Source: Citromicrobium bathyomarinum
GTDB taxonomy: Bacteria > Pseudomonadota > Alphaproteobacteria > Sphingomonadales > Sphingomonadaceae
NCBI GenBank assembly: GCA_001306305.2
Contig: CP155577.1
Location: forward strand, 558,001-622,000
Length of the DNA: 64,000 nt
Direction of reading: 5' to 3'
In this document: piece by piece, positions 19,028 through 37,042 of the stretch
Numbering within the stretch: position 1 is the first letter of the stretch
Layout of the letters: each line of letters opens with the position of its first letter
Notes under the pieces: model-generated
What the model was told of the DNA's origin: nothing
The model's database searches: none
Seen by the model: the letters and a program-made list of their open reading frames with translations, nothing else
Position numbers and translations under genes: made by a program

Positions 19028-19786
19028 GCTCGGCTAAAACCTTGTTGCAGGCGCACGATTGCGCGCGCCCGGAAAAACCTACTGCAAAATCGTGACCAGC
19101 GGCGATGCCAGCAGCGGCGCCACCGTCAGGAAGTCGCGGAACAGACGTCGCTGGGGGGAGTCGCCCACCACCACGATGTCGTTGGCGTAAATCGCGGGGT
19201 CGTCGTACAGCCCGCGCTCGATCGCCTCAAGGCTGTAGAGCCCGGCCATCCGCCGGCCGTTGACCGTGCGCAGGATCACCACCTCGTCCTTGCGCGCAAA
19301 CTCGCTCGTCCCGCGCGCCGCCGCGATCGCACGCAGCAGCGTCGTCTGGTTGGTCACCGGATACAGGCCCGGGGTCTCGACCTCGCCCGACACGGTCACC
19401 ACCTGGCTGACCGAGTTGACGATGTTCACCGTCACCTCCGGATCGCGCACGTAACGCGCATCCAGCGCCCGCTCCACATCCATCGCCAGCTCGCCCGCGG
19501 TCTTGCCGCCAGCCTCGACCGTGCCCAGAAACGGCAGCGCAATCCGCCCGCTCGCATCCACCTGCACATCGCGCGTGAACTCGGGATAGTTGAATACCTC
19601 GATCCGGATCGTGTCCAGCGGACCAATCAGCGCAGGACGATCCGGCGCCACTAGATCATCCCGATTGGGAATAGGCAGCCCATCCGCAGCCTCCACCACC
19701 GTCATACGGTCCGTCGATACCAACGGCTCACGAGAACCGCACCCCGACAAAACCAGCACACACAATAGCAATATCAATCGATGCAT
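16806..19786. repeat. Long direct repeat, left copy (2,981 bp, wza-wzc)
   Basis: This segment recurs at 44302-47282 in the same orientation, offset 27,496 bp. I found no mismatch at any place compared, including the 52-base gap between the two genes. The right edge stops exactly at the wza start codon. The left edge lies about 12 codons before the wzc stop, where the two tails diverge. Confidence 0.95.
19079..19786 (-). CDS. Wza-type polysaccharide export lipoprotein, copy 1
   Basis: A 235-residue outer-membrane-associated export protein of the Poly_export/SLBB class. The signal peptide ends in the lipobox VLSGC (Cys near residue 16). The export domain is GPLDTIRIEVFNYPEFTRDV to about 140, followed by an SLBB-like segment, VTVSGEVETPGLYPVTNQTT. 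It is shorter than Wza (about 380) and lacks the C-terminal amphipathic helix, as GumB/BexD-like proteins often do. ATG 19786 has AAGGGA at a good distance; an upstream ATG at 19816 is possible but would place residues before the lipoprotein signal. The sequence is identical to copy 2, but the DNA upstream of its start codon is unrelated. Confidence 0.9.
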   Translation of the reverse strand: MHRLILLLCVLVLSGCGSREPLVSTDRMTVVEAADGLPIPNRDDLVAPDRPALIGPLDTIRIEVFNYPEFTRDVQVDASGRIALPFLGTVEAGGKTAGELAMDVERALDARYVRDPEVTVNIVNSVSQVVTVSGEVETPGLYPVTNQTTLLRAIAAARGTSEFARKDEVVILRTVNGRRMAGLYSLEAIERGLYDDPAIYANDIVVVGDSPQRRLFRDFLTVAPLLASPLVTILQ

Positions 19787-20044
19787 CGCCAATCCCTTGC
19801 GGGCTTCTCCCCCCATGCGGGCGCTTGGTTAGGCCAAGAAGCCGAAAGAATAAAGCCCTCGCCAAGACTTGCCGCATGCAGACCCGCCGGGGTTGCGCGA
19901 TTGCGGGACGCGGGCGGACAAAAGAGATGCGCGGATGCCACGCCTTTCCTAACGCCTTAAATACACGGTTGGAAAGCTTCGGCGGCCCAGCTAGAGGAGC
20001 GCCGCATCGGGCGCTGTGCTGATTGTGCGGATCGAGTATTGAAA

Positions 20045-21355
20045 ATGGGACAAAACGCTGTTGACGCGGCATGCTCGTCGCGGGCGGCGGGCGCGGTTGG
20101 CCGAAGACGGCACACGACGCGGAGAAAAATCAAACGTTCGGTGACGATCAGCTTGCTTGCAGTGCTGGTGGCGATCCTGCTGCGCATCGTCATTTTCGGC
20201 ATGCCCGAGGCGAGCCTGTTTCAGGTCGGCTACGCCTGCCTGGCGGCCTTCGCCTCTTCGCTGATCGGTGTCCTGCTGATCGAGAACGTCAACCGCTATC
20301 CAGGCGTTGAGCGCGCTTCCGCAATCGTTCCGTCCTTTGCGCTGGCCTACGGGCTGATCGCGATCGGCCTGCTGATGTTCAAGCTCGATTACAGCCGCTT
20401 CGTGCTGATCGGCAGCTTCGTGGCGGTGGTGCTGCTCTCGTACCTCGAACATTTCCGCTACAAGGATGAGCTGGTGCTGCGCATCAGCGTGCTTGCGCAG
20501 CCCGACGGGGCAGCGCTCCCGCAGCTCCCCTCGATCGACTGGCTGAAACATTCGGACCATGCCGGCTTCGACCATGCCGATGCGATCGCGGTCGACTTCC
20601 GGCTCCCGCTGACCGACCGCCAGAGCGAGATGCTGGCCGACGCCGCGCTCGCGGGGATTCCGGTCTACAACCTGCGACATCTGATCGAATCGGTGACCGG
20701 CGAAGTGACGCTGGAGCATATCTCCGAGACCGCGTACGGATCGCTCACGCCCTCTCCTGTCTACCAGACGATCAAGCATGTGCTCGATCGTCTGATCGCG
20801 CTGGTCGTGCTGATCCCGCTGCTGCCGTTCCTGCTTCTGGCGGGGATCGCGATCAAGCTCGACAGCCCGGGCCCGATGATCTTCCGCCAGAGCCGGATGG
20901 GCTATCGGGCGCAGCCCTTCACCGTCTACAAGTTCCGCACCATGCAGCATTGCACCGCTCCCACGCCTGCCGGGCTGGACGATCTCGTGACCAAGGATGC
21001 GGATGCGCGGGTCACCCGGATCGGGCGCATCTTCCGCCGCACACGGGTCGACGAACTGCCGCAGATCGTGAACATCCTGCTGGGACAGATGAGCTGGATC
21101 GGCCCGCGTCCCGAGGCCGAGAAGCTGTCACGGTGGTATGAGGAGGAAATTCCCTATTACCGCTATCGCCACGTGGTGCGCCCCGGCATCAGCGGCTGGG
21201 CACAGACCGTTCAGGGCCATGTCGCCGATGTCGACAGCGTGAGCACCAAGCTCAATCACGATTTCTTCTACATCAAGAATTTCTCCCTTTGGCTCGACCT
21301 GCTGATCCTCGCCAAGACGCTGCGCGTGATGGTCAGCGGGTTCGGCTCGAAATAG
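20045..21355 (+). CDS. Undecaprenyl-phosphate sugar-1-phosphate transferase (initiating enzyme)
   Basis: A 436-residue polyprenyl glycosylphosphotransferase that attaches the first sugar phosphate to undecaprenyl phosphate on the inner membrane. The N-terminal half has four predicted helices (from SLLAVLVAILLRIVIFGM). A cytoplasmic segment follows, then a fifth hydrophobic helix (LIALVVLIPLLPFLLL). The catalytic bacterial sugar transferase domain has KLDSPGPMIFRQSRMG, FTVYKFRTM, VDELPQIVNILLGQMSWIGPRPE and PGISGWAQ. The starting sugar cannot be told. It is divergent from the wza copy with a 258-base gap and heads the cluster. The start has no clear ribosome site; TTG 20039 is an alternative. 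Confidence 0.9.
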   Translation: MGQNAVDAACSSRAAGAVGRRRHTTRRKIKRSVTISLLAVLVAILLRIVIFGMPEASLFQVGYACLAAFASSLIGVLLIENVNRYPGVERASAIVPSFALAYGLIAIGLLMFKLDYSRFVLIGSFVAVVLLSYLEHFRYKDELVLRISVLAQPDGAALPQLPSIDWLKHSDHAGFDHADAIAVDFRLPLTDRQSEMLADAALAGIPVYNLRHLIESVTGEVTLEHISETAYGSLTPSPVYQTIKHVLDRLIALVVLIPLLPFLLLAGIAIKLDSPGPMIFRQSRMGYRAQPFTVYKFRTMQHCTAPTPAGLDDLVTKDADARVTRIGRIFRRTRVDELPQIVNILLGQMSWIGPRPEAEKLSRWYEEEIPYYRYRHVVRPGISGWAQTVQGHVADVDSVSTKLNHDFFYIKNFSLWLDLLILAKTLRVMVSGFGSK

Positions 21356-21439: not shown

Positions 21440-22747
21440 TTGCATAGCCAGCAACTGATCGATCGCCTGAACAACGGCACCGCCACCATCGGGGTGGTCG
21501 GCCTGGGCTATGTCGGCCTGCCTCTGGTGCTGCGCTATTGCGAAAAGGGCTACAAGACGATCGGCTTCGACGTCGATTCCCGCAAGGTCGAGAAGCTGGC
21601 CAAGGCGCAAAGCTATATCGAGCATATCTCGGGCAAGGATATCGCCGCCGCCAACGAGACGGGCTTCGAGGCGACCACCGACATGGGCCGGATCGACGAA
21701 GTCGATGCAATTATCCTGTGCGTGCCCACCCCGCTCAACAAATATCGCGAGCCCGACCTTACCTACGTGCTCAACACGACCGAGGCGATCGTGCCGCACA
21801 TGCGCGCCGGGCAGGTCGTCTCGCTCGAAAGCACCACCTGGCCGGGCACGACCGACGAAGAGCTGAAGCCGCGGATCGAGAAATCCGGCCTGACCGTGGG
21901 TGAAGAGGTGTTTCTGGTCTATTCGCCCGAGCGCGAGGACCCGGGCAACGAGAAGTTCGAGACCGCGACCATTCCCAAGATCGTCGGCGGGGTAACCGAA
22001 ACCTGCCATGCGGTGGGCCAGGCGCTGTATGGCGGGGTGATCGACACGGTGGTCCCGGTCAGCTCGACCAAGGTTGCCGAGCTGACCAAGCTGCTCGAAA
22101 ACATTCACCGCGCGGTCAATATCGGGCTGGTCAACGAGATGAAGATAGTCGCCGACCGGATGGATATCGACATCCACGAGGTGATCCGCGCGGCGGCGAC
22201 CAAGCCGTTCGGCTTCGTGCCCTATTACCCCGGCCCGGGCCTCGGCGGTCACTGCATCCCGATCGACCCGTTCTACCTCACGTGGAAGGCGCGCGAATTC
22301 GGCCTGCACACCCGCTTCATCGAGCTGGCGGGCGAAGTGAACAGCTCGATGCCCGATTTCGTGGTCAACAAGCTGGCGCTGGCGCTCAACGGCAAACACA
22401 AGTCGATCGCGGGCTCGAAGATCCTCGTGCTCGGCATCGCCTACAAGCCCAATGTCGATGACATGCGCGAATCTCCCTCGGTCGAGATCATGGAGAAGTT
22501 GCGCGATCTGGGCGCTGACATTCACTACAGTGACCCGCACATCCCGGTCTTCCCCGAAACGCGCGAGCATGATTTCGACCTGTCCTCGGTCGATCTGACG
22601 GCGGACTCGCTGGCCGGGTTCGACGCGGTGGTTCTGACCACCGACCACAAGGCCTTCGACTACGACCTGATCCTCGAACACGCCGCCGTCATCCTCGACA
22701 CGCGCGGCAAGTTCGATCGCAACCACGAAAAGGTGTTCCCGGCATGA
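21440..22747 (+). CDS. wbpA: UDP-N-acetyl-D-glucosamine 6-dehydrogenase
   Basis: A 435-residue nucleotide-sugar dehydrogenase making UDP-GlcNAcA, the first step towards di-N-acetylated uronic acids. It has [60 protein letters not shown] and the catalytic [16 protein letters not shown]. The phrases NKYREPDL and SPEREDPGN are the WbpA/WbpO-type forms and differ from the WecC paralogue in this window. The start is TTG 21440, with GAGGA about ten bases upstream. It is followed by wbpB (4-base overlap), wbpD and wbpE in one transcript. Confidence 0.92.
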
Positions 22748-23727
22748 GCAACACGCGCATCGCCCAGATCGGCGTCGGCCACTGGGGCAAGAACCTTGCG
22801 CGCAATTACGCGCAGCTGGGCGCGCTGGCGGCGGTGGCCGACTATCACGCGCCGACGGCGGAGCGGATCGCGCAGGAGCACGGGACCGAGGCGCGCAGCT
22901 TCGAGGATATCCTCGCGGATGACAGCATTCACGGCGTGTCGCTGGCGACACCGGCGGAAACCCATGCCGATGTGGCGATTGCCGCGCTCGAAGCGGGCAA
23001 GCATGTCTATGTCGAAAAGCCGCTTGCCCTGCTGCCCGCCGACGGAGAGCGGATGGCGGCCAAGGCCGAAGAGGTGGGCAAGATCCTGATGGTCGGCCAC
23101 CTGCTGCAATACCACCCGATCTTCCGCAAGGCGAAGGAGCTGGTGGCGGGCGGCGCGATCGGCCAGCTGCGCTATGTCTATTCCAACCGCCTCAGCCTGG
23201 GCAAATTCCGCACCGAGGAAAACGTCATGTGGTCCTTCGCGCCACACGATTTCTCGATGCTGCTCGCGATGGTGGGTGAAGCGCCCGATGCCGTGACGGC
23301 CGAAGGCGCGGCGTGGATCACGCCGGGCATCGCCGACTGGTGCACCGCGCACCTGCAGTTCCCCGGAGGCGTGCGCGGCCATGTGCAGACCTCGTGGAGC
23401 CATCCTTTCAAGGAGGCGAGGCTGGTCGCCGTGGGCGATGAGGGCATGCTGGTGTTCGAAGACAGCGCGCCCGACTGGGATCGCAAGCTTTCGATCTATC
23501 GCCACGGGATCGACCGCTCCGGCCCGGCCCCCGCACCGATCAAGGCCGATCCGGAATATATTGCGGTCGAACAGGGCGAGCCGCTGCGTTCCGAATGCCA
23601 GCACTTCATCGATTGCATCGAACAGGGCACGCAGCCGCTTACCGATGTGGCCGAGGGACTGCGCGTTCTCGAAGTCCTCGACCGCGCGGAAGCCGCGCTG
23701 CAGGCCTCGCTGGGAGAAAACAAATGA
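22744..23727 (+). CDS. wbpB: UDP-2-acetamido-2-deoxy-glucuronate 3-dehydrogenase
   Basis: A 327-residue Gfo/Idh/MocA oxidoreductase. It oxidises C3 of UDP-GlcNAcA to the 3-keto sugar that WbpE aminates. The NAD-binding start is [17 protein letters not shown]. The family lysine is in YVEKPLA (EKP motif), and [10 protein letters not shown] leads into the catalytic domain. [13 protein letters not shown] carries the His/Asp pair. Its start overlaps the wbpA stop (ATGA) and its stop overlaps the wbpD start. In the known pathway the cofactor is recycled with 2-oxoglutarate. The neighbours make this assignment much firmer than homology alone. Confidence 0.9.
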
Positions 23728-24311
23728 CCGACAAGAAGCCCTATTTCGCGCACGAAAGCGCCTATGTCGACGAGCCCAGCACGATCGGCGCTGGTACCAA
23801 GATCTGGCATTTCAGCCATGTCCTGCCCAACACCACGATCGGCGAGAACTGCGTGCTCGGACAGAACGTGGTCGCCGGGCCCGACGTGACGATCGGCAAT
23901 AACTGCAAGATCCAGAACAACGTCTCGCTCTACAAGGGTGTGGAGCTGGCCGACGGGGTGTTCTGCGGCCCGTCCTGCGTCTTCACCAACGTGCTGACCC
24001 CGCGTGCGGAGATCGAGCGCAAGTCCGAATTCGCACCCACTCCCGTGGGCCGCGGCGCGACCATCGGGGCCAACGCGACCGTCGTGTGTGGCCACCGGAT
24101 CGGCGATTATGCGATGATCGCGGCCGGTGCCGTGGTTACCAAGGATGTAGCCGATTTTGCGCTGGTCGCGGGCGTTCCGGCAAAGCGGATCGGCTGGGTT
24201 TCGCGCACGGGCGAGCGTCTCGACGAGACGCTGGTATGCCCGCGCACGGGCGAGAAATACGAATATGACGCGAGCAGCGACACACTCCGGCTGACGGAAG
24301 AAAGGGCCTAA
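23724..24311 (+). CDS. wbpD: UDP-2-acetamido-3-amino-glucuronate N-acetyltransferase
   Basis: A 195-residue left-handed beta-helix acetyltransferase. Hexapeptide repeats run from about residue 18 to 160 (TIGAGTKIWHFSHV, TIGENCVLGQNVVAG, TIGNNCKIQNNVSLYKGV, TIGANATVVCG). The catalytic-site segment is FTNVLTPRAEI. It acetylates the C3 amine to give UDP-GlcNAc3NAcA. The frame is open from 23595, but ATG 23724, overlapping the wbpB stop, fits the family start. The order here is wbpA-B-D-E. Confidence 0.93.
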   Translation: MTDKKPYFAHESAYVDEPSTIGAGTKIWHFSHVLPNTTIGENCVLGQNVVAGPDVTIGNNCKIQNNVSLYKGVELADGVFCGPSCVFTNVLTPRAEIERKSEFAPTPVGRGATIGANATVVCGHRIGDYAMIAAGAVVTKDVADFALVAGVPAKRIGWVSRTGERLDETLVCPRTGEKYEYDASSDTLRLTEERA

Positions 24312-24315
24312 CCCC

Positions 24316-25443
24316 ATGCAATTTATCGATCTCGCCGCGCAGCAGCAGCGTATCCGGCCTGCTCTCGACGCGCGCATCGCCGCCGTGCTCGACCACGGCA
24401 AATATATCATGGGCCCCGAAGTGGCCGAGTTCGAAGGCAAGCTCGCCGAATTCTGCGGCGCGAAGCACGCGCTGGGCTGCGCCAACGGCACCGACGCGCT
24501 GCAGCTGGCGCTCATGGCGCTGGGCGCCGGGCCTGGCGACGCGGTATTCTGTCCCACCTTCACCTTTGCATCCACCGCAGAAATCGTGCCGATGACCGGC
24601 GCGACCCCGGTGTTCGTCGATGTCGACGAGCGGACCTACAACCTCGACGTCGAAAGCCTGAAGCGCGCGATCGCCTTCGCCAAGGCCGAGGGGATGAAGC
24701 CCGCCGGGGTGATCGCGGTCGACCTGTTCGGCCTGCCCGCCGATTACGACGCGATCGAGGCGGTTGCACAGGAAAACGGCATGTGGGTCGTGAGCGATTC
24801 GGCGCAGGGCTTCGGCGCGGATTACAACGGCCGCCGCACCGGTTCGATCGGCACCATTGCGACCACCAGCTTCTTCCCGGCCAAACCGCTTGGCTGCTAT
24901 GGCGATGGTGGTGCGGTGTTCACCGATGACGACGAGCTGCGCGCGCTGCTCGATTCCTACCGCGTGCACGGCAAGGGCACGCACAAGTACGATAACGAGC
25001 GGATCGGCCTCAACTCGCGGCTCGACACGCTGCAGGCGGCGATCCTGCTGGAAAAGCTGGCGATCTACGAAGACGAGATCGAAGCCCGCCAGGTGGTCGC
25101 CAACCGCTATACCGATGCGCTGGGCGACCTGCTGATCACCCCGCACGTGCCCAATGGCTGCCGTTCGGTGTGGGCGCAGTACACGGTGCGCACCCGCGAC
25201 GGTTCGGGCCGCGATGCGGTGATGGCGACCCTGAAAGAACATGGCGTTCCCTCGGTCGTCTACTACCCGCGCCCGCTGCACCTACAGACCGCCTATTCCT
25301 CCTTCCCCGGCGACCCCGAAGGGCTCGCCACGTCGGAGCGGATGGCCAATGAGGTCTTCAGCCTGCCGATGCACCCCTACATGGACGAAGGCACGCAGGC
25401 ACAGGTGATCGAGGCGCTGCGCGCGGCGGTCGTCCCGGCCTAG
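24316..25443 (+). CDS. wbpE: UDP-2-acetamido-3-keto-glucuronate aminotransferase
   Basis: A 375-residue DegT/DnrJ/EryC1/StrS PLP aminotransferase. The PLP lysine is K190 in SFFPAKPLGCYGDGGA, with the phosphate-binding region CANGTDAL (64-71) and the aspartate of SDSAQGFG near 171. It adds the C3 amino group. The start follows the wbpD stop by four bases. Length and motif order are normal for WbpE and for other sugar aminotransferases; the wbpABD context sets the specificity. Confidence 0.93.
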   Translation: MQFIDLAAQQQRIRPALDARIAAVLDHGKYIMGPEVAEFEGKLAEFCGAKHALGCANGTDALQLALMALGAGPGDAVFCPTFTFASTAEIVPMTGATPVFVDVDERTYNLDVESLKRAIAFAKAEGMKPAGVIAVDLFGLPADYDAIEAVAQENGMWVVSDSAQGFGADYNGRRTGSIGTIATTSFFPAKPLGCYGDGGAVFTDDDELRALLDSYRVHGKGTHKYDNERIGLNSRLDTLQAAILLEKLAIYEDEIEARQVVANRYTDALGDLLITPHVPNGCRSVWAQYTVRTRDGSGRDAVMATLKEHGVPSVVYYPRPLHLQTAYSSFPGDPEGLATSERMANEVFSLPMHPYMDEGTQAQVIEALRAAVVPA

Positions 25444-25474: not shown

Positions 25475-26767
25475 GTGGTGCAGGACGAGGCAGGGATTTC
25501 CGGTATTCGCGAGATCGGCGCGCGCATGGTCGCGGCGACACCGCAAGATAGCGCGAATTTCTTCGGCTTTTACGATCTCTGCCCGTTCTCGCCCGATGGG
25601 CGCGACCTGCTGTTGCTCAATTGCCCTGCCGACTGGGTGACCCTGCCCGTGGGGGAGCCTGCACTGGTGCGCCGCTGGCGGCCAGAAGACGCCACTTTCG
25701 AGACGCTCGGCGAAACGCGCGGCTGGAACTGGCAGCATGGCGCACGCCAGCAATGGCGGCGCGACGGATCGATCCTGTACAACGACGTCGACGGGCAGGG
25801 GCATGCGGTTGCGCGCAATGTTAGCCCGGATGGCACGCCGATCCGGACGCTCGATATGGCGATCGGCGCGCTGTCCCCCGACGAATCGATTGGCGTTGGG
25901 GGCAATTACGCGCGCCTCGCCCGGCTCGACCCGACCTATGGCTATGGCGCCGCCGTCGATCGCCATCTCGGCGAGGGGCCGACGCAGGACGGGCTGTGGA
26001 GCGTCAGCATGGCCGATGGGGCCGTGTCGCTGCTGCTCTCCTATGCCGAACTTGCCGAGACTGTAGGTTCGCCCCATTCGGATCGCCGGTTCGTCACCCA
26101 CCCGGTCTTCTCACCCGACGGGACCCGGCTGGCCTTCTTCGTGACCGATGCGGGCGAGGGCGGGACCACCTATGCCCGGCTGCTGGTGCGCGATTGCGAC
26201 AGCGGCAAGGTTCGCGTGGTCGCGCAGGAAAGAGTCAGCCATCCGGCGTGGATCGGTGAGGACCGGATCTGGTATTGGGGCCGCAATTCCGGGGCGGTGC
26301 GCGCGCTTGCGACTAATCGGCTGCTCGCCAACCCGGCGGTGCGTGCGGTCGCCAGGTTTGCCCGTCGCCTGCTGCGCGCGCGGATGAACCAGCTGGTGGC
26401 CGAAGGGTTCTACGTGTCCGATCTGAACGACGACACGCGCAAGCGGGTCGCCGAGCATACCCTCACCGAAGACGGCCATTACAGCTGGCGTGGACACGGA
26501 TCGGTCTTGCTGGGCGATACCTATCCCGACGAAGACGCGTGGCTGACCCTGTTGCTGTTCGACCTCGCCTCTGGCCAGCGGGTGGATCTGGCCCGCATCC
26601 GGCACGAGGTCGCGACCCGGGAAGAGCCCATGCGGTGTGACCTCCACCCGCGCTGGGATCGATCCGGCACGCGGGTGTGCATCGACTTCGTCACCGACGG
26701 ATGCCGCCGCACCGGCATTTTCGACGTTGGCCCTGCGCTCTCCCGGCTGGCAACGGCCGGCGCATGA
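25475..26767 (+). CDS. Beta-propeller-like protein of unknown function in the polysaccharide cluster
   Basis: A 430-residue protein without signal peptide or membrane helix. Repeated SPDG-type blade turns are visible (PFSPDGRDLL, ALSPDESIGV, VFSPDGTRLAFF), as in TolB/WD-like propellers. The opening NFFGFYDLCPFSPDG, then RGWNWQHGARQQW, ILYND and GYGAAVD resemble an uncharacterised propeller family I know from surface-polysaccharide clusters, distantly like oligogalacturonate lyases; this is from memory. The start is GTG 25475 (a tandem GTGGTG) or ATG 26-base-codon-later at 25526. It overlaps wzx by four bases, so it belongs to the operon. It could bind, trim or modify the glycan or a nucleotide sugar. 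No catalytic residue can be assigned. Confidence 0.65.
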   Translation: MVQDEAGISGIREIGARMVAATPQDSANFFGFYDLCPFSPDGRDLLLLNCPADWVTLPVGEPALVRRWRPEDATFETLGETRGWNWQHGARQQWRRDGSILYNDVDGQGHAVARNVSPDGTPIRTLDMAIGALSPDESIGVGGNYARLARLDPTYGYGAAVDRHLGEGPTQDGLWSVSMADGAVSLLLSYAELAETVGSPHSDRRFVTHPVFSPDGTRLAFFVTDAGEGGTTYARLLVRDCDSGKVRVVAQERVSHPAWIGEDRIWYWGRNSGAVRALATNRLLANPAVRAVARFARRLLRARMNQLVAEGFYVSDLNDDTRKRVAEHTLTEDGHYSWRGHGSVLLGDTYPDEDAWLTLLLFDLASGQRVDLARIRHEVATREEPMRCDLHPRWDRSGTRVCIDFVTDGCRRTGIFDVGPALSRLATAGA

Positions 26768-28206
26768 ACGAAGAGCCGCCTGTGACCCCCGCGCCCGATT
26801 CTGGCGCGACCCCGCCAATTGGGCGGATTGCGGCGCTGCGTGGGCGCGTGTCCGCGCTCGCCCAGCAGGGGCTGGTTCGTTCCACTGGGGTGCTGATCGG
26901 TGGCACGGTCGGTGCCAATCTCATCACCGCACTCTCGCTCCCGGTGGTGACGCGCCTCTACACCCCCGTGGAGATGAGTGTGCTGGCGGTTTTCGCCAGC
27001 CTGCTCCAGACGCTTTATGTGTCTATCTGTTTGCGGTTCGACATCGCCCTGTCGATGCCCGAAAGCGATGATGATGCGATCAATCTGCTGGCGCTGGGGG
27101 CCTTTTTTGCGGCCGTCCTGTCAGGATTGATTGCGCTCGTTCTGCTCGTCCTCCCGGCATCCGCCTATGACGCATTCGGCCATCCCGAACTCGTCAATCT
27201 TATCTGGTTCCTGCCTCCCTCGCTCGCGCTGGCCGGAATCTACAGCCTGATGCAGCTGTGGTATGTGCGCAGAAAGGGCTTCGGTCCGATTGCGCGAAGC
27301 CGGATGGCGCAGGCGGGCAGCGGTGCCGCGACCCAGATCGCACTTGGGCTCCTGCATACCGGACCGTTCGGCTTGCTGCTCGGCTATGCGATCAATTTCA
27401 GCGCAGGCTCAATCCTGCTCGGCACACGCTTCCTACGCGGTGAGTTAGACCTTCTCCGGAAGGTTTCGGTGTCCAGGATGCGCGCATTGTTCCGCGAGTA
27501 CAGACTGTTTCCCGCCTACTCGGCACCCGAGGCACTGGCGCACTCTGCGGCGTGGCAGCTACCCATCGTGCTCATCGCCGCGCTGGCGATCGGGCCTGAG
27601 GCGGGTTACCTGACGCTCGCGATGTTCGTTGTCCAGGCGCCGATGTCGCTACTCGGCAATGCACTGTCTCAGGTCTACCTGTCCGAAGCCCCGGCCCGTC
27701 ACCGTGATGGGGCGCTCGGCCCGTTCACCGTGCAGGTGGTCGGCGGACTGATGCGGATCGGGGTCGGGCCATTGATCGCGCTGGCAATCATATCGCCCTT
27801 CGCCTTCGCCTTCGTCTTCGGGTCGGAATGGTCGCGCGCGGGTGTGCTGGTAGTGTGGCTGACCCCCTGGTTCATCGCGCAGCTGTTGACCGCGCCTGTG
27901 TCCATGGCGCTGCAGGTGACCAACCGCCAGCGTACCGCCTTCGTCCTGCAGTTCGTCGGCCTCGCCCTGCGGGTGGGACTGGTGGTGGCAGTGGGCATTC
28001 TTTCCCCCCGGTTCGTTTCGGAAGCCTATGCCATTTCGGGGGCGATCTTCTATTTCGGTTATCTGGTGCTGCTGCTCCACGCGGTCGGTGCGCACGCGGG
28101 CGATGTCGTGCGCGAGATGCGCAGGGCTTTGCTCCCGATCACCGCATTTTGTGTGCTGGGTGTGATCGGTGCGTTCGCGGTGCACTGGCTGGACACCGTG
28201 CTGTGA
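26764..28206 (+). CDS. wzx: Wzx-type oligosaccharide flippase
   Basis: A 480-residue polytopic membrane protein with about 12-14 hydrophobic helices. It starts with STGVLIGGTVGANLITALSL and LPVVTRLYTPVEM, the usual opening of Wzx/RfbX-type MOP flippases. It moves the lipid-linked repeat unit across the inner membrane. Overlaps of four bases upstream (ATGA) and three downstream (GTGA) couple it to two proteins of unknown function. Assignment rests on topology, the opening motif and its place in the cluster. Confidence 0.87.
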   Translation: MNEEPPVTPAPDSGATPPIGRIAALRGRVSALAQQGLVRSTGVLIGGTVGANLITALSLPVVTRLYTPVEMSVLAVFASLLQTLYVSICLRFDIALSMPESDDDAINLLALGAFFAAVLSGLIALVLLVLPASAYDAFGHPELVNLIWFLPPSLALAGIYSLMQLWYVRRKGFGPIARSRMAQAGSGAATQIALGLLHTGPFGLLLGYAINFSAGSILLGTRFLRGELDLLRKVSVSRMRALFREYRLFPAYSAPEALAHSAAWQLPIVLIAALAIGPEAGYLTLAMFVVQAPMSLLGNALSQVYLSEAPARHRDGALGPFTVQVVGGLMRIGVGPLIALAIISPFAFAFVFGSEWSRAGVLVVWLTPWFIAQLLTAPVSMALQVTNRQRTAFVLQFVGLALRVGLVVAVGILSPRFVSEAYAISGAIFYFGYLVLLLHAVGAHAGDVVREMRRALLPITAFCVLGVIGAFAVHWLDTVL

Positions 28207-29729
28207 AGCGCCGCGTCTTTCTTGGCGCGACGGCCGCGATGCCGCTGGTGTTTGCCGGTGGAGCGTGGACGAGCCGTGCGCGGAGCGTGCGCTGGCTCGA
28301 TCTGCTGGACGAGCGGCAGCGCCGCCAGGTGCTCGTCGGCAGGCCGGATTTCGACGTTGCCGCCAGCCTGCGCCAGGCCCTCGAATCCCTGCCCGATGAC
28401 GCAACGCTCGACGCGCGCGACCTGACCGGAGTGGTCGATCTGGCGAGCGATCCGTTTCCGCAGGCCCAGCGCCGCGCCTTTGCACTTCGCACGGGCGATG
28501 CGACATTCCGCTTCGATTTCAATCAGGGTTCGATCGCCTTGCCCTCGCGCGCGACCTGGCAGGGTGAGCGCACGCGGATCGAGCCTGCCCGCCCGATCGA
28601 GCGCGTGCTGACCGACGCCTCGCCCGCGGGAGGACTGGTCACCACCGCCATCGCCCCGGGCCTGTGCAGTGGGCGTGCGGGTAGCGACACGATCGAATTG
28701 TCGCACCCGATCGAGGCGCAGAGTCTGGTCCCGGGAATGCGGATCGCGATTTTCGGGCTGCGCGAGACGCCATCGCTGGCAACTTCGCTGGCATCCTCGA
28801 TCGGACCGCAAACCCAGGAATTCGCCTTCGCCGGGAATGTCGATGCAACCATCGGGGCATCGCAGGTCTATCTGAGGATCGGCGAGGAAATCGTGCTCGG
28901 TACGGTTGCACAGGGTCGTCTGCGCGTCTCCGCCGATGGTCGCGGTGCGCTGGGCACGCAGCCCGCCGCGCACCGGGCTGGAGAGCAGATCGTACCGCAG
29001 CTGAGCTTCCTCGCCTCCATCACCGGAGTTACAGGCACATCGGTGACGCTCGACCGGCGGCTACCGCGCACTATTGTGCGGGCGCCGTTCCGCGCGGGCT
29101 CGGTCGGTTCACGGCTGGTGGGCCGGTTTGAGATCGACGGCGCCTACCGGGGCGGCGAGGCGGGGGCGTTTAGCTGCCTTGCCTCGACCCTCTCTCAAGA
29201 TTTCATGGTCGAAGGAGAGATCGTCCTGTCCCGTGCCTCGCATGGCGGGTTCATGGGCTTTGGCTGTTCGGACGCGAAGATTGCGCTGGCGAGCGTGACC
29301 GCGATCGGCCGTCCGCAAGAGCAGTTCGGGGGCAGCATCTGGCTCTATGGCTCTGCGAGCGGCAACCGGGTCTCGGCCGGAAGTCTCAGCGATGGCAATG
29401 GCGGCATTTTCATTGACGACAAGTCCTACGGCGTGTCGCGATACGCGCTCGAAGGGCCGTGTGACGACAACACCGTGAGCATCGGGCAGATCGTCCGGCA
29501 CCGGGTTGCCGGGCAGATCAGCGGCTCGAGCGGCAATACGGTGACCATCGGCCTCGCCCAGGTGAGCGACACCGCGTTCATCGTCGACAAAGGTGCAGCC
29601 CAGTCGTCTCGCGGGGTCGGCACCGAGCGCAACATGGTCGATATTGGTCAACTGACCGGGGCCGATCGCATGTTCGGCGATGCCTTGAACGAGACCGAGC
29701 TGCGCGGCCCGTTCCGCATCGAGCAATAG
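28203..29729 (+). CDS. Tat-exported beta-helix-like protein of unknown function
   Basis: A 508-residue protein starting at GTG 28203, inside the wzx stop. The N-terminus MKRRVFLGATAAMPLVFAGG looks like a twin-arginine signal (RRxFL), so it is probably exported folded. The middle and C-terminal parts are rich in short Asn/Gly/Ser turns: GSASGNRVSAGSLSDGNGGI, CDDNTVSIGQIV and SGSSGNTVTIGLAQV. That spacing suggests a right-handed parallel beta-helix, as in polysaccharide lyases, hydrolases and phage tailspikes. I do not recognise the family and see no certain catalytic residues. A periplasmic glycan-processing or glycan-binding role is inferred from the location between wzx and wzy. Confidence 0.7.
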   Translation: MKRRVFLGATAAMPLVFAGGAWTSRARSVRWLDLLDERQRRQVLVGRPDFDVAASLRQALESLPDDATLDARDLTGVVDLASDPFPQAQRRAFALRTGDATFRFDFNQGSIALPSRATWQGERTRIEPARPIERVLTDASPAGGLVTTAIAPGLCSGRAGSDTIELSHPIEAQSLVPGMRIAIFGLRETPSLATSLASSIGPQTQEFAFAGNVDATIGASQVYLRIGEEIVLGTVAQGRLRVSADGRGALGTQPAAHRAGEQIVPQLSFLASITGVTGTSVTLDRRLPRTIVRAPFRAGSVGSRLVGRFEIDGAYRGGEAGAFSCLASTLSQDFMVEGEIVLSRASHGGFMGFGCSDAKIALASVTAIGRPQEQFGGSIWLYGSASGNRVSAGSLSDGNGGIFIDDKSYGVSRYALEGPCDDNTVSIGQIVRHRVAGQISGSSGNTVTIGLAQVSDTAFIVDKGAAQSSRGVGTERNMVDIGQLTGADRMFGDALNETELRGPFRIEQ

Positions 29730-29843: not shown

Positions 29844-30561
29844 ATGCTAGATCGCGCCCAGCCAACCGCCGCACACCGGTCACCGGCCGCACGCACCGGC
29901 CAGGTCGTGCTGGAATCGCTGGATTCGAGCGCGGCGGTCGTGATCTGCTCGCTCATCTTCGCATGGGCCATCCACCAGGCGCACATCACGATTCTTCAGC
30001 CGCAGTGGGATTATGTTGGCTTCAGCTACGCTGCTCCCGGTCTTGGCACGATCGCGATCATGATACTGCTGATTTCGATCGGATCGGTGGCCATGCCAAG
30101 CCGGATCGAGCGGCCCTCGTCGATGATCCTGCTTTTCCTTCATGTATCTGTATTCATACCCGGCGTAACCATTGCGCTGTGCCTGCGGATCGACAGTGTG
30201 CAGGCCTACGCGCCGATGCTGGCCGTGCTGACGCTGGTTCACGTCATAACCGGCGTGGTGTCGCGCAATGGCCCGGCACCGCCCCAGGGGGAGCGTTTCG
30301 TTCCGGGACCCGAGGTCACGCTTCTGCTGATCGGAGTGTGGGCGCTGGTCACTTTGCTGATCATTTACGTCTTTGGCGAGATCATGCGCTTCGCAAGCCT
30401 TACCGAAGTGTACGACCAGCGGTTCGCCGTCGATCGCTCGACCAGCATCATCGGCTACATCCGGTCCTATTACGTCAACTTGATCTGCCCCGCGCTGGTC
30501 GCGATCGGACTGCTGCGGCGCAACGTTGTCGTGGTTGGAATTGGCTGTGTCGGTTGCCTTA
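29844..30561 (+). pseudogene. wzy: wzy-type polysaccharide polymerase, N-terminal part, interrupted by an insertion sequence
   Basis: Codons 1-239 of an O-antigen polymerase-like protein with about six hydrophobic helices (for example AAVVICSLIFAWAI and LLIGVWALVTLLIIYVFG). The segment DRSTSIIGYIRSYYVNLICP resembles the periplasmic loop region of Wzy proteins. The native frame is cut at 30561 by an IS5-family element, and the hybrid frame stops at a TGA (30567-30569) inside it. Joining 30561 to 31520, which removes the element and one TTA copy, restores the frame: CTT, ATC, GCC, TAC, ATG. The intact gene would encode 460 residues. Its position between wzx and transferase genes supports the polymerase role. 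Confidence 0.85.
30559..30561. repeat. TTA target-site duplication, left
   Basis: TTA lies directly outside the left end of the insertion sequence and is repeated at 31517-31519. IS5-family elements of the IS1031 type duplicate a TNA target. Confidence 0.8.
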
Positions 30562-31516
30562 GAGCCTGACTCAGAAGTTTATGCGATCTGGCAGTGGCTT
30601 GCGATGAGGCGGGTGAGGCGGCGGATGTGGGCGATGGTAGTCCATGCGGTGGAACTTTCGATAGTTCTTTCCCAGTCCTTTGCGAGCCGTCGACATCTGC
30701 CGAGCCAGGCGAAGGTGCGCTCGACCACCCAGCGGCGCGGGAGCAGAACAAAGCCCCTGGCGGTGTCGCAGCGGCGCACGATCTCGAGCGTCCATTGCCC
30801 ATGCCCTTGAAGCGCGCCGATGAGCTTGTCGCCTGCGTAGCCCCCATCGGCGAAGAGGTGGCGCAGCCACGGGAAGCGGTAGCGGATTGCCTTGATGAGA
30901 TCGACCGCCCCGTCGCGATCCTGAATGCTGGCAGCGTGGATGGTGACGAACAACATCAGTCCGAGCGTATCGGTGATGATGTGACGCTTGCGTCCCATGA
31001 TCTTCTTGCCCGCATCGTAGCCCCGTGGGCCGCCACTCTCGGTGGTCTTGACGCTCTGGCTATCGATCACCCCGGCGCTGGGGCTGGCCTCGCGCCCTTC
31101 GATCTGGCGCGCAGCCATCACCAGCAGGTGATTGATCGTCTGCCATAGGCCGCTGTCGCGCCAGGCATAGAAATAGCGTTGAACCGTCGAGAGCGGAGGG
31201 AAATCCTTGGGCAGCATCCGCCATTGGCAACCGCTTGTTGCCAGATAGAGGATCGCGTTCATCACCTCGCGCAGGTCGGCGCAGCGCGGCCTGCCGCCAG
31301 GTTTCGCGGGCGGCAACAGAGGCTCGATCAAGGCCCACTCGGCATCGCGCAAATCGCTTGGATAACGTAGACCCGGGCGGCTATGCTGCTGCCGGGAGGT
31401 ATCGGTCCACATCGCTTATTCCTCGGTCGTTTCTGGCGAAACCCCGGAATCAGCGATGCACCAGCGCGTCAAGCGCAACCAGCTGATATCTCCCAACTAC
31501 TTTTGAAGACAGGCTC
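30562..31516 (-). mobile_element. IS5-family insertion sequence inside wzy (955 bp)
   Basis: The element is bounded by imperfect inverted repeats beginning GAGCCTG: GAGCCTGACTCAGAAG on the left, and GAGCCTGTCTTCAAAA as the complement on the right, about 12 of 16 matching. TTA is duplicated at both sides. It carries one intact transposase gene on the minus strand, opposite to wzy. Size, single gene and TNA target suggest the IS1031-like subgroup of IS5. The undamaged transposase, clear ends and exact duplication indicate a recent insertion. Confidence 0.92.
30579..31412 (-). CDS. IS5-family transposase
   Basis: A 277-residue DDE transposase. The N-terminal domain is LRYPSDLRDAEWALIEPLLP, typical of IS5/IS1031 proteins. 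Catalytic residues: the first Asp in AGVIDSQSVKTTES, the second Asp in LFADGGYAG, and the Glu in RRWVVERTFAWLGRCRRL. The reading frame is complete, so the element could be active or supply transposase in trans. It lies antisense to the interrupted wzy gene, and transcription from the element would run against it. Confidence 0.93.
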   Translation of the reverse strand: MWTDTSRQQHSRPGLRYPSDLRDAEWALIEPLLPPAKPGGRPRCADLREVMNAILYLATSGCQWRMLPKDFPPLSTVQRYFYAWRDSGLWQTINHLLVMAARQIEGREASPSAGVIDSQSVKTTESGGPRGYDAGKKIMGRKRHIITDTLGLMLFVTIHAASIQDRDGAVDLIKAIRYRFPWLRHLFADGGYAGDKLIGALQGHGQWTLEIVRRCDTARGFVLLPRRWVVERTFAWLGRCRRLAKDWERTIESSTAWTTIAHIRRLTRLIASHCQIA

Positions 31517-31519
31517 TTA
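31517..31519. repeat. TTA target-site duplication, right
   Basis: The second TTA copy, directly outside the right end of the element. After it, the wzy frame resumes at 31520. Confidence 0.8.
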
Positions 31520-32184
31520 TCGCCTACATGGTCGATGCTCAGAAAGCCGCGCTCGCGCTGCCTGTGCTCATGATCGCGATGTACTACGCGCTACGTTACG
31601 CCCCGAACGTGGCGAAGCTGTTCACCGTCCCGATCCTGTTCCTGGCATTTCTAACGCTGGTCTGCATCGTTTTGCGGAGCACGGAGGTTGGCTTTGCGCT
31701 TCAATCGGTGTTTTTCACCCGCGGGATTGCCATCCCTTCGCTGACCCTGGTGCAGTATTACGACCTGTTTTCCACCTACGGATATACATGGTGGAGCAAT
31801 ATTACCGGGCTGTCGCTGGTTCTGCCGGCGCCGCCGGCATTCGCCAACGACCCGTCATGGCCCGCGCTCGGCCAGATCGTGGGCGATCACTACTATGGCG
31901 CGAGCATCAACCTGAACGCCAACGCAAACCCCTATTCGGGTGAGGGGCTCGCCGCAGGCGGGCTTGTCGGCCTGCTGGTGATTGGCGTGATTATGGCGGC
32001 TTTCCTACGGGTCTACGACCTGTGCGTTGCCGGATGGGATCGCCTGTTCGTGCTGCTGATCGCGGTGCCGGTGGGCTTCGCGCTGAGCAACGCGCACCTC
32101 AGCACCGTGCTGGTATCCTTCGGGCTCGCCGCCTGGCTGCTGATTTTCGCCTTCTACAAACCGGGCAGGGGTGGGTGGCTCTGA
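31520..32184 (+). pseudogene. wzy: wzy-type polysaccharide polymerase, C-terminal part
   Basis: The remaining ~221 codons of wzy, frame-continuous with the N-terminal part if the insertion is removed. An ATG at 31528 could allow reinitiation of a 218-residue fragment. It has helices such as VPILFLAFLTLVCIVL and GLVGLLVIGVIMAAFL, and the loop SINLNANANPYSGEGLAAGG, which resembles the conserved late periplasmic loop of Wzy proteins. Neither half alone is expected to polymerise. The stop overlaps the next start (TGATG), which shows that wzy was part of the coupled operon. Confidence 0.85.
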
Positions 32185-33388: not shown

Positions 33389-34267
33389 ATGACACCCGCA
33401 AACGACGCTCGAACCGGAACGGGCACACATCGCTCTCTTATCGAGATTCCATGCCCCTACTGCTCAGGGACAAGCCATTCTTTCTGGGCCGAAGAGCGCG
33501 GATATACCGTGGTCCGGTGCGACGGTTGCCGTTTCCTGTATCTCAACCCGGCGCCACCACCCGAAAGCGTCTCGGAAGCCGTGATGACGGGTTTTCACCA
33601 CGATGAGGCTGGCGATCTCGATGTGAGGGCGCATCGCAGCGAAAAGAAGGTCGATCATTACGAGGCCATCATCAAGACCATGTTCGCGGACAAGTGGAGC
33701 AGCGAACAGCCGATCCACTGGCTCGATATCGGCTCTGGCTATGGCGAAATCATCGAGGCGGTTTCACGGCTGGCGCCGAAAGGCAGCACGATCGAGGGGA
33801 TCGAGCCGATGAAGCCAAAGGCCGATGCCGCGCGCGAGCGCGGCCTCACCGTTACCAATGATTATCTGCGGCGCGATCATCCCAAGGTCGACATCGCGTC
33901 TTCGATCGACGTGTTCTCTCACATCCCGGACTATCGGGCCTTCCTCGCGGACGTGGTGGCAGTACTGAAGCCGGGCGGCGAATTTCTGATCGAAACGGGC
34001 AACCTCGCCGACGTCGACGAGCGCTCACAGTTTCCGTTCGAACTTGGGGTTCCCGATCACCTGACCTTCGCCGGACGCGCGCACCTCGAGGGCCTCCTCG
34101 ACGAGGCCGGCTTCGAAGTGGTGACTGTACAGGAACGCCGCGTCGACGACTTGATGGGCGCGGCCAAGAATCTGGTGAAGATCCTCATCGGTCGCCCGGG
34201 CGTGCTTTCGGTCCCCTACCAGTCGAAGTATCGGCAGCTGGTGATCAGGGCGCGCTTGCGCGAGTGA
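33389..34267 (+). CDS. Class I SAM-dependent methyltransferase with zinc-ribbon start
   Basis: A 292-residue protein. The N-terminal CPYCSG...RCDGC (near 23-50) forms a probable zinc ribbon. The following Rossmann fold has WLDIGSGYGEIIEAV (motif I, near 110), IEGIEPMKPKADAARERG, DIASSIDVFSHIPDYRAFL and LKPGGEFLIETGN (post-motif). This domain pair occurs in methyltransferases of sugar and polysaccharide clusters. It starts two bases after the transferase stop. It could methylate a sugar of the repeat unit or act as a capping enzyme; nothing in the sequence settles the acceptor. A 211-base gap with no recognised element follows. Confidence 0.8.
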   Translation: MTPANDARTGTGTHRSLIEIPCPYCSGTSHSFWAEERGYTVVRCDGCRFLYLNPAPPPESVSEAVMTGFHHDEAGDLDVRAHRSEKKVDHYEAIIKTMFADKWSSEQPIHWLDIGSGYGEIIEAVSRLAPKGSTIEGIEPMKPKADAARERGLTVTNDYLRRDHPKVDIASSIDVFSHIPDYRAFLADVVAVLKPGGEFLIETGNLADVDERSQFPFELGVPDHLTFAGRAHLEGLLDEAGFEVVTVQERRVDDLMGAAKNLVKILIGRPGVLSVPYQSKYRQLVIRARLRE

Positions 34268-34478: not shown

Positions 34479-35633
34479 ATGTCCGAGATCTCCGCCCAGG
34501 CGCGGCCCTACCAGATATGCACGAACTGCATCATGGACACGAGCGATTCGAAGATCGTGTTCGATGAAAACGGTGTGTGCGAATACTGTAACAACTACTA
34601 CAGCAATATTCTGCCCAACTGGCACACCGACGAGCGTGGCGAGCGCGAGATCATGGCGCAGATCGAGAAGATCAAGCGCGACGGCGAGGGCAAGGATCAC
34701 GACTGCCTGATCGGCCTCTCCGGTGGGGTCGATTCCAGCTACGTCGTCCACCACGCGAAGGAAAAGTTCGGCCTGCGCCCGCTGCTCTACCACGTGGATG
34801 CCGGATGGAACTCCCAGCAGGCGGTCAACAATATCGAAAAGCTGGTCGATGGGCTCGACCTCGACCTGTACACCGAGGTCGTCAACTGGCCCGAGATGCG
34901 CGACCTCCAGCTCGCCTTCTTCAAGGCGCAGGTGCCGCATCTCGACACCCCGCAGGACCACGCCTTCTTTGCCGGGCTGTACAACTTTGCGGCCAAGAAC
35001 AAGGTCAAGTACATCCTGACCGGCGCGAACTATTCGACCGAATGCGTGCGCGAGCCGCTCGAATGGCATTATCACGCGTCGGACTTGCGCCAGCTGAAGG
35101 ACATCCACAAACGCTTCGGCACGCGTCCGCTCAAGACCTTCCCTCTCGCAGGGATCTTCAAGTTCAAGATCTACTACCGCTACGTGCACGGCGTGCAGGT
35201 GGTGAAGCCCTTGAACTACATGCCTTACCACAAGGAACAGGCGATCGAGGAGCTGGTCGGCATCTACGGCTGGCAGCGCTATGCCCACAAGCACTATGAA
35301 TCGCGCTTCACGCGTTTCTACGAAGGCTACTGGCTGCCGAGCAAGTTCGGTTACGACAAGCGCCGCGCGCACTTCTCCTCGCTGATCCTGACCGAGCAGA
35401 TGAGCCGCGAGGAAGCGCTCGAAAAGATCGCGATCCCCGCCTACACACCGGAGCAGATCGCCGAAGACTTCGAATATATCGCGACCAAGCTGGGCCTTAC
35501 GGTCGAAGAGCTGCAGGCGCTTCACGACGGTCCGAACAAGACCCACTTCGACTACAAGAACAACACTGCCTTGATCGATCTGGGCACCACGGTGATGCGC
35601 AAGCTTGGCCTGCAACGTTCGGTGATGCGTTGA
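34479..35633 (+). CDS. wbpG: N-acetyl sugar amidotransferase (WbpG-like)
   Basis: A 384-residue PP-loop amidotransferase. Two cysteine pairs (C14/C17 and C34/C37: ICTNC and VCEYC) form a zinc site. The ATP-pyrophosphatase loop is SGGVDSSY (81-88). The segment ILTGANYSTECVREP is typical of the WbpG/PseA/LegA group. Together with the HisH-like glutaminase and the HisF-like partner that follow, it would turn an acetamido group into an acetamidino group using ammonia from glutamine. With wbpABDE present, the substrate is likely a 2,3-diacetamido uronic acid, as in P. aeruginosa O5. A pseudaminic or legionaminic acid substrate is less likely because no such pathway is seen. Confidence 0.9.
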   Translation: MSEISAQARPYQICTNCIMDTSDSKIVFDENGVCEYCNNYYSNILPNWHTDERGEREIMAQIEKIKRDGEGKDHDCLIGLSGGVDSSYVVHHAKEKFGLRPLLYHVDAGWNSQQAVNNIEKLVDGLDLDLYTEVVNWPEMRDLQLAFFKAQVPHLDTPQDHAFFAGLYNFAAKNKVKYILTGANYSTECVREPLEWHYHASDLRQLKDIHKRFGTRPLKTFPLAGIFKFKIYYRYVHGVQVVKPLNYMPYHKEQAIEELVGIYGWQRYAHKHYESRFTRFYEGYWLPSKFGYDKRRAHFSSLILTEQMSREEALEKIAIPAYTPEQIAEDFEYIATKLGLTVEELQALHDGPNKTHFDYKNNTALIDLGTTVMRKLGLQRSVMR

Positions 35634-36244
35634 TCACCATCGTCGACTACGGCCTCGGCAATATCGCCGCCTTCCTGAACATGTACAAGCGCCTGAACAT
35701 TCCGGCGCGGGCGGTTCAGACGGCGGCGGAGCTGGCAACGGCGGAGCGGATCGTGCTCCCCGGCGTGGGCGCGTTCGACTATGCGATGGACCTGCTCGAT
35801 GCATCGGGCATGCGTGAAACGCTCGACGAGATGGTGACGCAGAAGAAAGTCCCCGTGGTAGGCATCTGCGTCGGCATGCAGATCCTCCTCGATGGCAGTG
35901 ACGAGGGCACGCGCGAAGGGCTCGGCTGGGTGCCCGGGCGGACCCGCGCCTTTGCCACTCGCAACGATATGGAAGGCCTGCCGCTGCCGCATATGGGCTG
36001 GAACGACGTGACGCCGGGCAGCGGGCGCGTGCTGTTCGATGCGCTGGACGAAGATCCGCGCTTCTACTTCCTCCATTCCTATTACGTCGAGCCGGCGGAG
36101 CAGTCCGATGTCGCGGCGACCGCGCATTACGGGTTCGACTTCGCCTGCGCGATCCATCGCGACAATGTGTGGGGCGTGCAGTTCCACCCGGAAAAGAGCC
36201 ACCATTTCGGCGCCGCCGTGCTGAAGAGCTTTGCGGAGCTGTAA
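35630..36244 (+). CDS. HisH-like glutamine amidotransferase for sugar amidination
   Basis: A 204-residue class I glutamine amidotransferase. The catalytic triad is C80 in GICVGMQ, H186 and E188 in FHPEKS. The oxyanion region is LPGVGAF. It would release ammonia for WbpG through the HisF-like partner. The start is TTG 35630, overlapping the wbpG stop by four bases (TTGA). It is a HisH paralogue: no other histidine gene is nearby, and the wbpG neighbour points to the polysaccharide-specific HisH2 type. Confidence 0.9.
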   Translation: MITIVDYGLGNIAAFLNMYKRLNIPARAVQTAAELATAERIVLPGVGAFDYAMDLLDASGMRETLDEMVTQKKVPVVGICVGMQILLDGSDEGTREGLGWVPGRTRAFATRNDMEGLPLPHMGWNDVTPGSGRVLFDALDEDPRFYFLHSYYVEPAEQSDVAATAHYGFDFACAIHRDNVWGVQFHPEKSHHFGAAVLKSFAEL

Positions 36245-36250
36245 GACCAG

Positions 36251-37042
36251 ATGCTGCGTCCCCGGATCATCCCCTGCCTGCTGGTGCACGAAGGCGGCCT
36301 CGTGAAGACGGTCGGCTTCGGCAATCCGAAATATGTCGGCGACCCGATCAATGCGGTGAAGATCTTCAACGAGAAGGAAAGCGACGAGCTGATCGTCGTC
36401 GATATCGACGCGAGCGTGACCGGCGCGGAGCCCGATTTCCAGATGATCGCGCACCTGGCCGCCGAATGCCGCATGCCGCTGTGCTATGGCGGCGGGGTGA
36501 AGACTGCGGCGCAGGCCAAGCGGATCGTCAGCCTGGGCGTGGAAAAGGTTGCGGTCAGCGCCGCAGCGGCCGAGCGCCCGGCACTGATCGGCGAAATGGC
36601 CAACGAGGTCGGCCGCCAGAGCGTGGTCACCGTGATCGACTACAAAAAGCGGCGGCTGCGCGGCGGCTACGAAATGGTCACCCACAACGCGACCCGCAAC
36701 GCCAAGCGCGATCCGGTGGAATTCGCGATCGAAGCCGAGGCGCAGGGCGCGGGCGAGATCGTGCTCAACTCGGTCGACAATGACGGCAAGATGACCGGTT
36801 ACGACCTGACGCTGGCCAAGCAGCTGCGCGAGAAGGTCGATGTGCCGATTACAATTCTGGGCGGGGCTGGGTCGCTCGACGATATTGCCGAGGCGATCCG
36901 CGAAATGGGCATCATCGGCCTGGCGGCGGGCAGCCTGTTCGTATTCAAGGGCAAGCTGCGCGCGGTGCTGATCAGCTATCCGCAGCCCGATGCCAAGGAA
37001 CAACTCATCCGCGACGCCATGGCGGCGCGCGGGCAAGCGTAA
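36251..37042 (+). CDS. HisF-like ammonia-channelling partner for sugar amidination
   Basis: A 263-residue TIM-barrel protein of the HisA/HisF family. It opens MLRPRIIPCLLVHEGGLVKT. Where histidine-pathway HisF has a DxxA segment, this has VVDIDASVTGAEPD. It also has YGGGVKTAAQAKRIVSLGVEKV, the second phosphate-site region LNSVDNDGKMTGYD, and GGAGSLDDIAEAI. It probably forms a complex with the HisH-like glutaminase and passes ammonia to WbpG. The gap to the previous stop is six bases. The PCLLV opening (in place of PCLDV) is the form I associate with the HisF2 type. Confidence 0.9.
   Translation: MLRPRIIPCLLVHEGGLVKTVGFGNPKYVGDPINAVKIFNEKESDELIVVDIDASVTGAEPDFQMIAHLAAECRMPLCYGGGVKTAAQAKRIVSLGVEKVAVSAAAAERPALIGEMANEVGRQSVVTVIDYKKRRLRGGYEMVTHNATRNAKRDPVEFAIEAEAQGAGEIVLNSVDNDGKMTGYDLTLAKQLREKVDVPITILGGAGSLDDIAEAIREMGIIGLAAGSLFVFKGKLRAVLISYPQPDAKEQLIRDAMAARGQA

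Follow-up and report, generated by a model that had tools for sequence, protein, structure and literature searches.

A beta-propeller protein related to WbgV and PL22 lyases and a candidate Tat-exported beta-helix protein encoded on either side of wzx in Citromicrobium bathyomarinum

Gene order at the wzx locus and its occurrence in related genomes

In a polysaccharide gene cluster of Citromicrobium bathyomarinum the gene for the flippase Wzx lies between two genes for which Pfam, NCBIfam, and PHROGs searches yielded no usable family. This raises the question of what the two encoded proteins, here called propeller protein and helix protein, contribute to polysaccharide formation. The first-pass annotation had regarded them as parts of a coupled triplet with wzx, which might modify or proofread the lipid-linked unit and represent an undescribed activity. 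We analyzed a stretch of 64,000 nucleotides (contig CP155577.1, positions 558,001 to 622,000, forward strand; the window), whose own numbering is used in the following. The genes relevant here are:

20039-21355: polyprenyl sugar-phosphotransferase, upstream of the WbpA-like gene
21440-22747, plus strand: nucleotide-sugar 6-dehydrogenase, WbpA-like (TIGR03026, 430 bits)
22744-23727, plus strand: Gfo/Idh-type 3-dehydrogenase, WbpB-like (NF040723, E 3.9e-42, below cut-off)
23595-24311, plus strand: hexapeptide N-acetyltransferase, WbpD-like (PF00132, E 7e-23; NeuD/PglB/VioB family, 91 bits)
24316-25443, plus strand: DegT aminotransferase, WbpE-like (PF01041, E 2.9e-105)
25475-26767, plus strand: propeller gene, beta-propeller, PL22-like and WbgV-related, proposed uronate C5-epimerase
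26764-28206, plus strand: wzx flippase (Pfam Polysacc_synt_3, PF13440, E 1.3e-11)
28203-29729, plus strand: helix-protein gene, Tat-type signal and candidate right-handed beta-helix, which contains a phage-tail-type insertion at about residues 188-338
34479-37042, plus strand: WbpG/HisH/HisF2 acetamidino modification set (TIGR03573, TIGR01855, and NF038364, all over curated cut-offs)

The true start of the WbpD-like reading frame likely lies about 130 bases further in, and the GTG start of the propeller gene is tentative. Downstream of the helix-protein gene follow wzy, a GT4 gene, a methyltransferase gene, the WbpG/HisH/HisF2 set, and then genes for an FnlA-like dehydratase and a WecB-type 2-epimerase. 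The gene order wbpA-B-D-E is that of established pathways to UDP-2,3-diacetamido-2,3-dideoxy-D-glucuronate. The upstream wbpABDE-like set of the window should yield a 2,3-diamino-uronate, and we infer the final sugars of the cluster from such gene content. As had been noted before, start/stop overlaps join the propeller gene, wzx, and the helix-protein gene; all three reading frames are open and overlap by 4 bp each, whereby the TGA stop of the propeller gene (26765-26767) meets the ATG of wzx (26764-26766) and the TGA stop of wzx (28204-28206) meets the GTG of the helix-protein gene (28203-28205). Since dN/dS against relatives amounts to 0.17-0.22 for the propeller protein as well as for the helix protein, both flanking genes encode maintained proteins.

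Two features of the window strain concern the cluster as a whole. The wzy gene (29844-32184) is split by an IS5-like element (break at about 30525-31519; transposase at 30579-31412 on the minus strand), while it is intact (about 460 aa) in the related genomes G001, G002, and G008. Because wzy is interrupted, the window strain may make no polymer. Furthermore, a direct repeat of 2990 bp (16797-19786 and 44293-47282, 99.93% identical), which carries genes for a wzc-type kinase and of wza type, flanks the whole cluster, and recombination between the two copies could lead to its loss.

All three genes are present in the window genome, in G001, and in G002. The sister species G008 has a colinear cluster, consisting of wbpA-B-D-E, wzx, the helix-protein gene (product 77% identical), wzy, and the GT4 gene, which is devoid of the propeller gene; there, the wbpE stop (L024:7737) is followed by the wzx ATG (L024:7767). 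The remaining six genomes of this genus encode neither the propeller protein nor the helix protein. Elsewhere in the family, at the loci L136, L139, and L140, wbp genes are followed by a related wzx without either of the two genes. Thus, a conserved functional unit of propeller gene, wzx, and helix-protein gene, whose conservation across genomes the first-pass annotation had suggested examining, is ruled out by G008 and by these three loci. As the cluster of the sister species lacks exactly the propeller gene, the propeller protein is not part of the flippase and its gene represents an optional tailoring gene. G008 also carries a membrane-acyltransferase-like gene (L024, 13497-14498) in place of the window methyltransferase gene (33389-34267). 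In addition to the propeller gene, this is a second difference of serotype type.

Fold, active site, and relatives of the propeller protein

The AF2 model of the propeller protein, which was calculated with a 60-sequence alignment, is all-beta and consists of a single propeller (mean pLDDT 93.1, pTM 0.91). Together with a PD40 trace at residues 208-222, it bears out the earlier fold call. Also the previously noted NFFGFYD opening is present and lies within a family-conserved motif (F29, F30, D34). A fold search, which the first-pass annotation had recommended, identified the PL22 oligogalacturonate lyase 3pe7 as the best structural match. Among the Foldseek matches, ranks one, two, and five belong to structures of oligogalacturonate lyase (E 1.9e-10 to 3.0e-10, with 3c5m at 1.9e-10), and a second structural aligner superimposed 331 residues of 3pe7 at an rmsd of 3.5 (Z 29.1), whereby the PL22 structures reached Z values of 29.1 and 28.4 and the next protein 25.1. 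An independent sequence profile of the propeller protein likewise finds 3pe7 (E 1.6e-5). The Pfam model PF14583 (Pectate_lyase22) gave no match to the window protein at E <= 1 and matched one of the 60 aligned relatives (E 0.008).

The profile alignment assigns R217, H242, H287, H353, and H355 of 3pe7 to R235, H256, H335, D389, and H391 of the propeller protein, and Q350 to R387. In oligogalacturonate lyase we take H242 to be the base, which is assisted by R217, and H287, Q350, H353, and H355 to hold Mn2+. The metal site and base of PL22 are therefore preserved in part: H242, H287, and H355 are kept, as is R217, whereas H353 is replaced by Asp and Q350 lies opposite an Arg. Among the 60 aligned family sequences H209, H256, H335, D389, and H391 are invariant, and R235 occurs in 55. 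Apart from the two exchanged ligands, the propeller protein differs from the PL22 lyases 3pe7 and 3c5m by an overall identity of just 15-16% and by its genetic context, which is polysaccharide assembly instead of pectin use.

In the genome collection, the propeller family is encoded at no fewer than 553 loci, from bacteria as well as archaea, and it has no family of its own in the Pfam and NCBIfam libraries searched; a scan of viral contigs with the propeller protein gave no relatives. The closest member that bears a name is WbgV from Shigella sonnei (tblastn E 3e-18, 24.5% identity across 93% of the length), which retains all six residues (H209, R235, H256, H335, D389, and H391). WbgV is annotated as “UDP-GalNAcA C5 epimerase” and its gene is part of the S. 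sonnei O-antigen cluster, where it adjoins a gene for a TviB-type UDP-GlcNAc 6-dehydrogenase. Some Shigella records name it “glycosyl transferase,” and the other annotated relatives that we saw are labeled either “hypothetical protein” or “glycosyl transferase.” The S. sonnei O-antigen genes stem from Plesiomonas shigelloides O17, for which UDP-L-AltNAcA is predicted, whereby one analysis of the O17 cluster attributes the C5 step to WbgZ instead of WbgV (PMC6467956; PMC9723277). Literature searches on the biochemistry of WbgV, on propellers with C5-epimerase activity, and on sphingan lyases yielded nothing useful, and no test of the annotated WbgV activity was found. The propeller protein and WbgV thus have in common the homology along 93% of the length, the six identical putative active-site residues, and a cluster of the Wzx/Wzy type that also encodes a nucleotide-sugar 6-dehydrogenase. 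They differ in that they are far apart in a quick tree and that the neighbors of the propeller gene should make an amidinated 2,3-diamino-uronate. Because of these neighbors, the substrate of the propeller protein should differ from that of WbgV.

In this quick tree, the window propeller protein falls into a clade of 13 proteobacterial relatives with 100% support, 10 of which are encoded near glycosyltransferase genes. WbgV does not adjoin it; together with a Parabacteroides protein it sits on a long branch, and the backbone forks are open. Across the family, the relatives mostly have glycosyltransferase genes or an unrelated context next to them instead of wzx. About two thirds of the sampled members have no glycosyltransferase gene nearby, which means that the function varies within the family. 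Many relatives (L032 8989-10278, L033 8950-10221, L056, and others) are located away from glycosyltransferase genes and adjoin genes for dehydrogenases, aminotransferases, or Gfo/Idh oxidoreductases; such neighborhoods suggest other substrates and perhaps catabolic roles. An assumed linkage of the nearest relatives to a nucleotide-sugar dehydrogenase gene was ruled out, since none lies within 10 kb; in those nearest relatives that were checked, such a dehydrogenase is encoded elsewhere in the genome. Among the 31 relatives with glycosyltransferases nearby, one is close by in only seven.

Proposed role of the propeller protein

On balance, we lean towards the propeller protein being a cytosolic C5-epimerase of a hexuronic acid, which would act before Wzx transfers the repeat unit. 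A cytosolic location is suggested by the absence of a signal sequence, and the first-pass annotation had likewise placed the propeller protein in the cytoplasm and the helix protein, with its Tat-like start, in the periplasm. For an epimerase speak the genes for uronate and diamino-uronate formation that surround the propeller gene, and the clean absence of the gene in G008 fits a tailoring enzyme. The likely substrate would be the UDP-2,3-diacetamido-2,3-dideoxy-D-uronate from the upstream wbpABDE-like genes or its 3-acetamidino form, and the enzyme might act either at the stage of the nucleotide sugar or at that of the lipid-linked sugar. By analogy to PL22, a metal at H335, D389, and H391 would neutralize the carboxylate and stabilize the intermediate, R235 would assist, and H256 would abstract the C5 proton. 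From there, the paths would diverge: a lyase eliminates, while the propeller protein would return a proton on the opposite face and thereby convert the D- into the L-uronate. The gene might thus be understood as an optional cassette that alters one residue of the polysaccharide.

It could also be that the propeller protein acts as an intracellular lyase or hydrolase with true PL22 chemistry, which clears faulty uronate-containing lipid-linked or stray oligosaccharides. This comes near to the proofreading that had been proposed earlier, and it would agree with a lyase as the closest solved fold, whose base and the larger part of whose metal site are shared, and with the many relatives away from glycosyltransferase genes. 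However, the clade of the window protein is found almost entirely in polysaccharide-assembly clusters, two metal ligands of the lyase are changed (D389, R387), and WbgV belongs to a small O-antigen cluster whose predicted L-altruronate product needs a C5 step (PMC6467956). We therefore consider a lyase or hydrolase improbable. A role as an unusual glycosyltransferase, or as a scaffold for glycosyltransferases, appears even more doubtful: relatives are often encoded between glycosyltransferase genes and some WbgV records bear that label, but the model is a single propeller without any glycosyltransferase fold and the invariant His and Asp residues match the lyase active site.

With respect to the lipid-linked unit, the idea of a modification gains support from the propeller fold, from the active-site match pointing to uronate C5 chemistry, and from the nucleotide-sugar annotation of WbgV. 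Proofreading finds no such support, given that G008 lacks the propeller gene, that relatives mostly lie elsewhere than beside wzx, and that the active-site match is to C5-uronate chemistry. To speak of an undescribed activity is too strong for the propeller protein, because WbgV already carries a name for that activity; for the helix protein, it may be justified.

The helix protein and the meaning of the locus

The N-terminus of the helix protein, MKRRVFLGATAAMPLVFAGG, starts with MKRRVFLG and combines a twin-arginine motif with a moderately hydrophobic stretch. The RR pair is invariant in all four copies of the protein, in agreement with the RRxFL signal described earlier; PF10518 was not matched in the Pfam search. 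Judged from this motif, the helix protein is predicted to be exported by the Tat system in folded form. The Asn/Gly-rich rungs were also recovered, as N-x-V-x-[IAV]-G repeats at residues 388, 423, 445, and 477; four such motifs were reached in none of 5000 shuffles, with the motif chosen after inspection. For the beta-helix itself, homology speaks in favor. Residues 75-483 align with a BppU-type tail protein of the Staphylococcus phage SAP3, namely with its beta-helix part (E 2e-6, 23% identity); this phage protein has a weak PF13229 (Beta_helix) match below the cut-off (E 4e-4). The AF2 prediction from the single sequence (pLDDT 34) does not support this fold. A further weak resemblance to an Erwinia phage tail fiber covers residues of about 188-338.

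The SAP3 tail protein is the sole outside relative found that covers most of the helix protein. Both proteins are collinear over residues 75-483 and share an RGAxGT..H..GE module as well as SIWL and IDD motifs. In contrast, the SAP3 protein also contains BppU and collagen-like regions, whereas the helix protein has a Tat-type signal and is encoded in a bacterial polysaccharide operon. In searches of overlapping sets from the order (298 genomes), the family (398), and the class (385), the full-length protein was revealed in only four genomes, all from the genus, where it always follows wzx. Short matches of the helix-protein profile in other genomes of the family were attributed to chance after inspection of L116 and L118, where the frames overlap genes resembling those for glucose-6-phosphate dehydrogenase and a transporter. 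Plasmids searched with the helix protein gave no match, nor did viral contigs that were scanned with it and with the phage beta-helix yield relatives. A sequence search of the PDB found nothing, and with a profile including the phage relative solely a weak match to a phage tail tip was obtained (E 0.09).

The periplasm is probably where the helix protein encounters the polymer. As a component separate from the propeller protein, it might bind or trim the newly made chain or act on it in another way, and its position would resemble that of WcaM. One possibility, which we put forward with some reserve, is an enzyme of the periplasm that acts on the cell's own polysaccharide, be it as a lyase, as a hydrolase, or as a polymer-level epimerase, and that is related to phage receptor-binding beta-helices. 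The homology to the BppU-type tail protein argues for it, as does the occurrence, elsewhere in the family, of unrelated proteins with Pect-lyase_RHGA_epim or Beta_helix matches close to wzx, but no characterized lyase or epimerase family was matched, no solved relative was found, and the predicted model reached a pLDDT of 34.

More tentative still, the helix protein might bind the polymer in the periplasm or serve as its chaperone without being an enzyme, in a position like that of WcaM. The colanic-acid protein WcaM of E. coli is a predicted Tat substrate (PMC7549933; PMC3027627). Like the helix protein it has a Tat-type signal and its gene lies within a wzx cluster, that of wzxC, so that the resemblance is one in kind, and within the genus the helix protein always accompanies this wzx. 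However, the two have no sequence similarity (BLASTP E 0.46; hhalign probability 0.5%), the wcaM gene does not adjoin wzx, and the function of WcaM itself is, to our knowledge, unproven. These two assessments apply solely to the helix protein and should not be summed with those given for the propeller protein.

Beta-helix proteins that are not homologous to the helix protein are also encoded near wzx at L138 (6894-8330) and L139 (17598-18722), with matches to Pect-lyase_RHGA_epim and Beta_helix, and at L136 (4405-6489) a protein of 694 residues with an RR start appears similar by look and has no family match. Going by this pattern, which is made up of a few cases and is no statistic, such clusters may recurrently have a periplasmic beta-helix protein as a replaceable partner.

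Taken together, we tentatively propose, with less confidence than for the epimerase reading itself, that the propeller family constitutes widespread metal-dependent uronate C5-epimerases, which would share a common origin with the PL22 lyases and have no profile model in the searched libraries. The product of the window member would be a 2,3-diamino-uronate in the L configuration (L-ido or L-gulo), formed while the sugar is either nucleotide-bound or lipid-linked, and the adjoining Tat-exported relative of phage receptor-binding beta-helices might have been recruited for the cell's own polysaccharide. Linking the propeller family to PL22-type C5 chemistry would make L-uronates predictable from sequence in many O-antigen, capsule, and exopolysaccharide clusters. 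In this context, the sister species with and without the propeller gene, whose clusters are otherwise colinear, provide a natural experiment on the sugar that the propeller protein controls.
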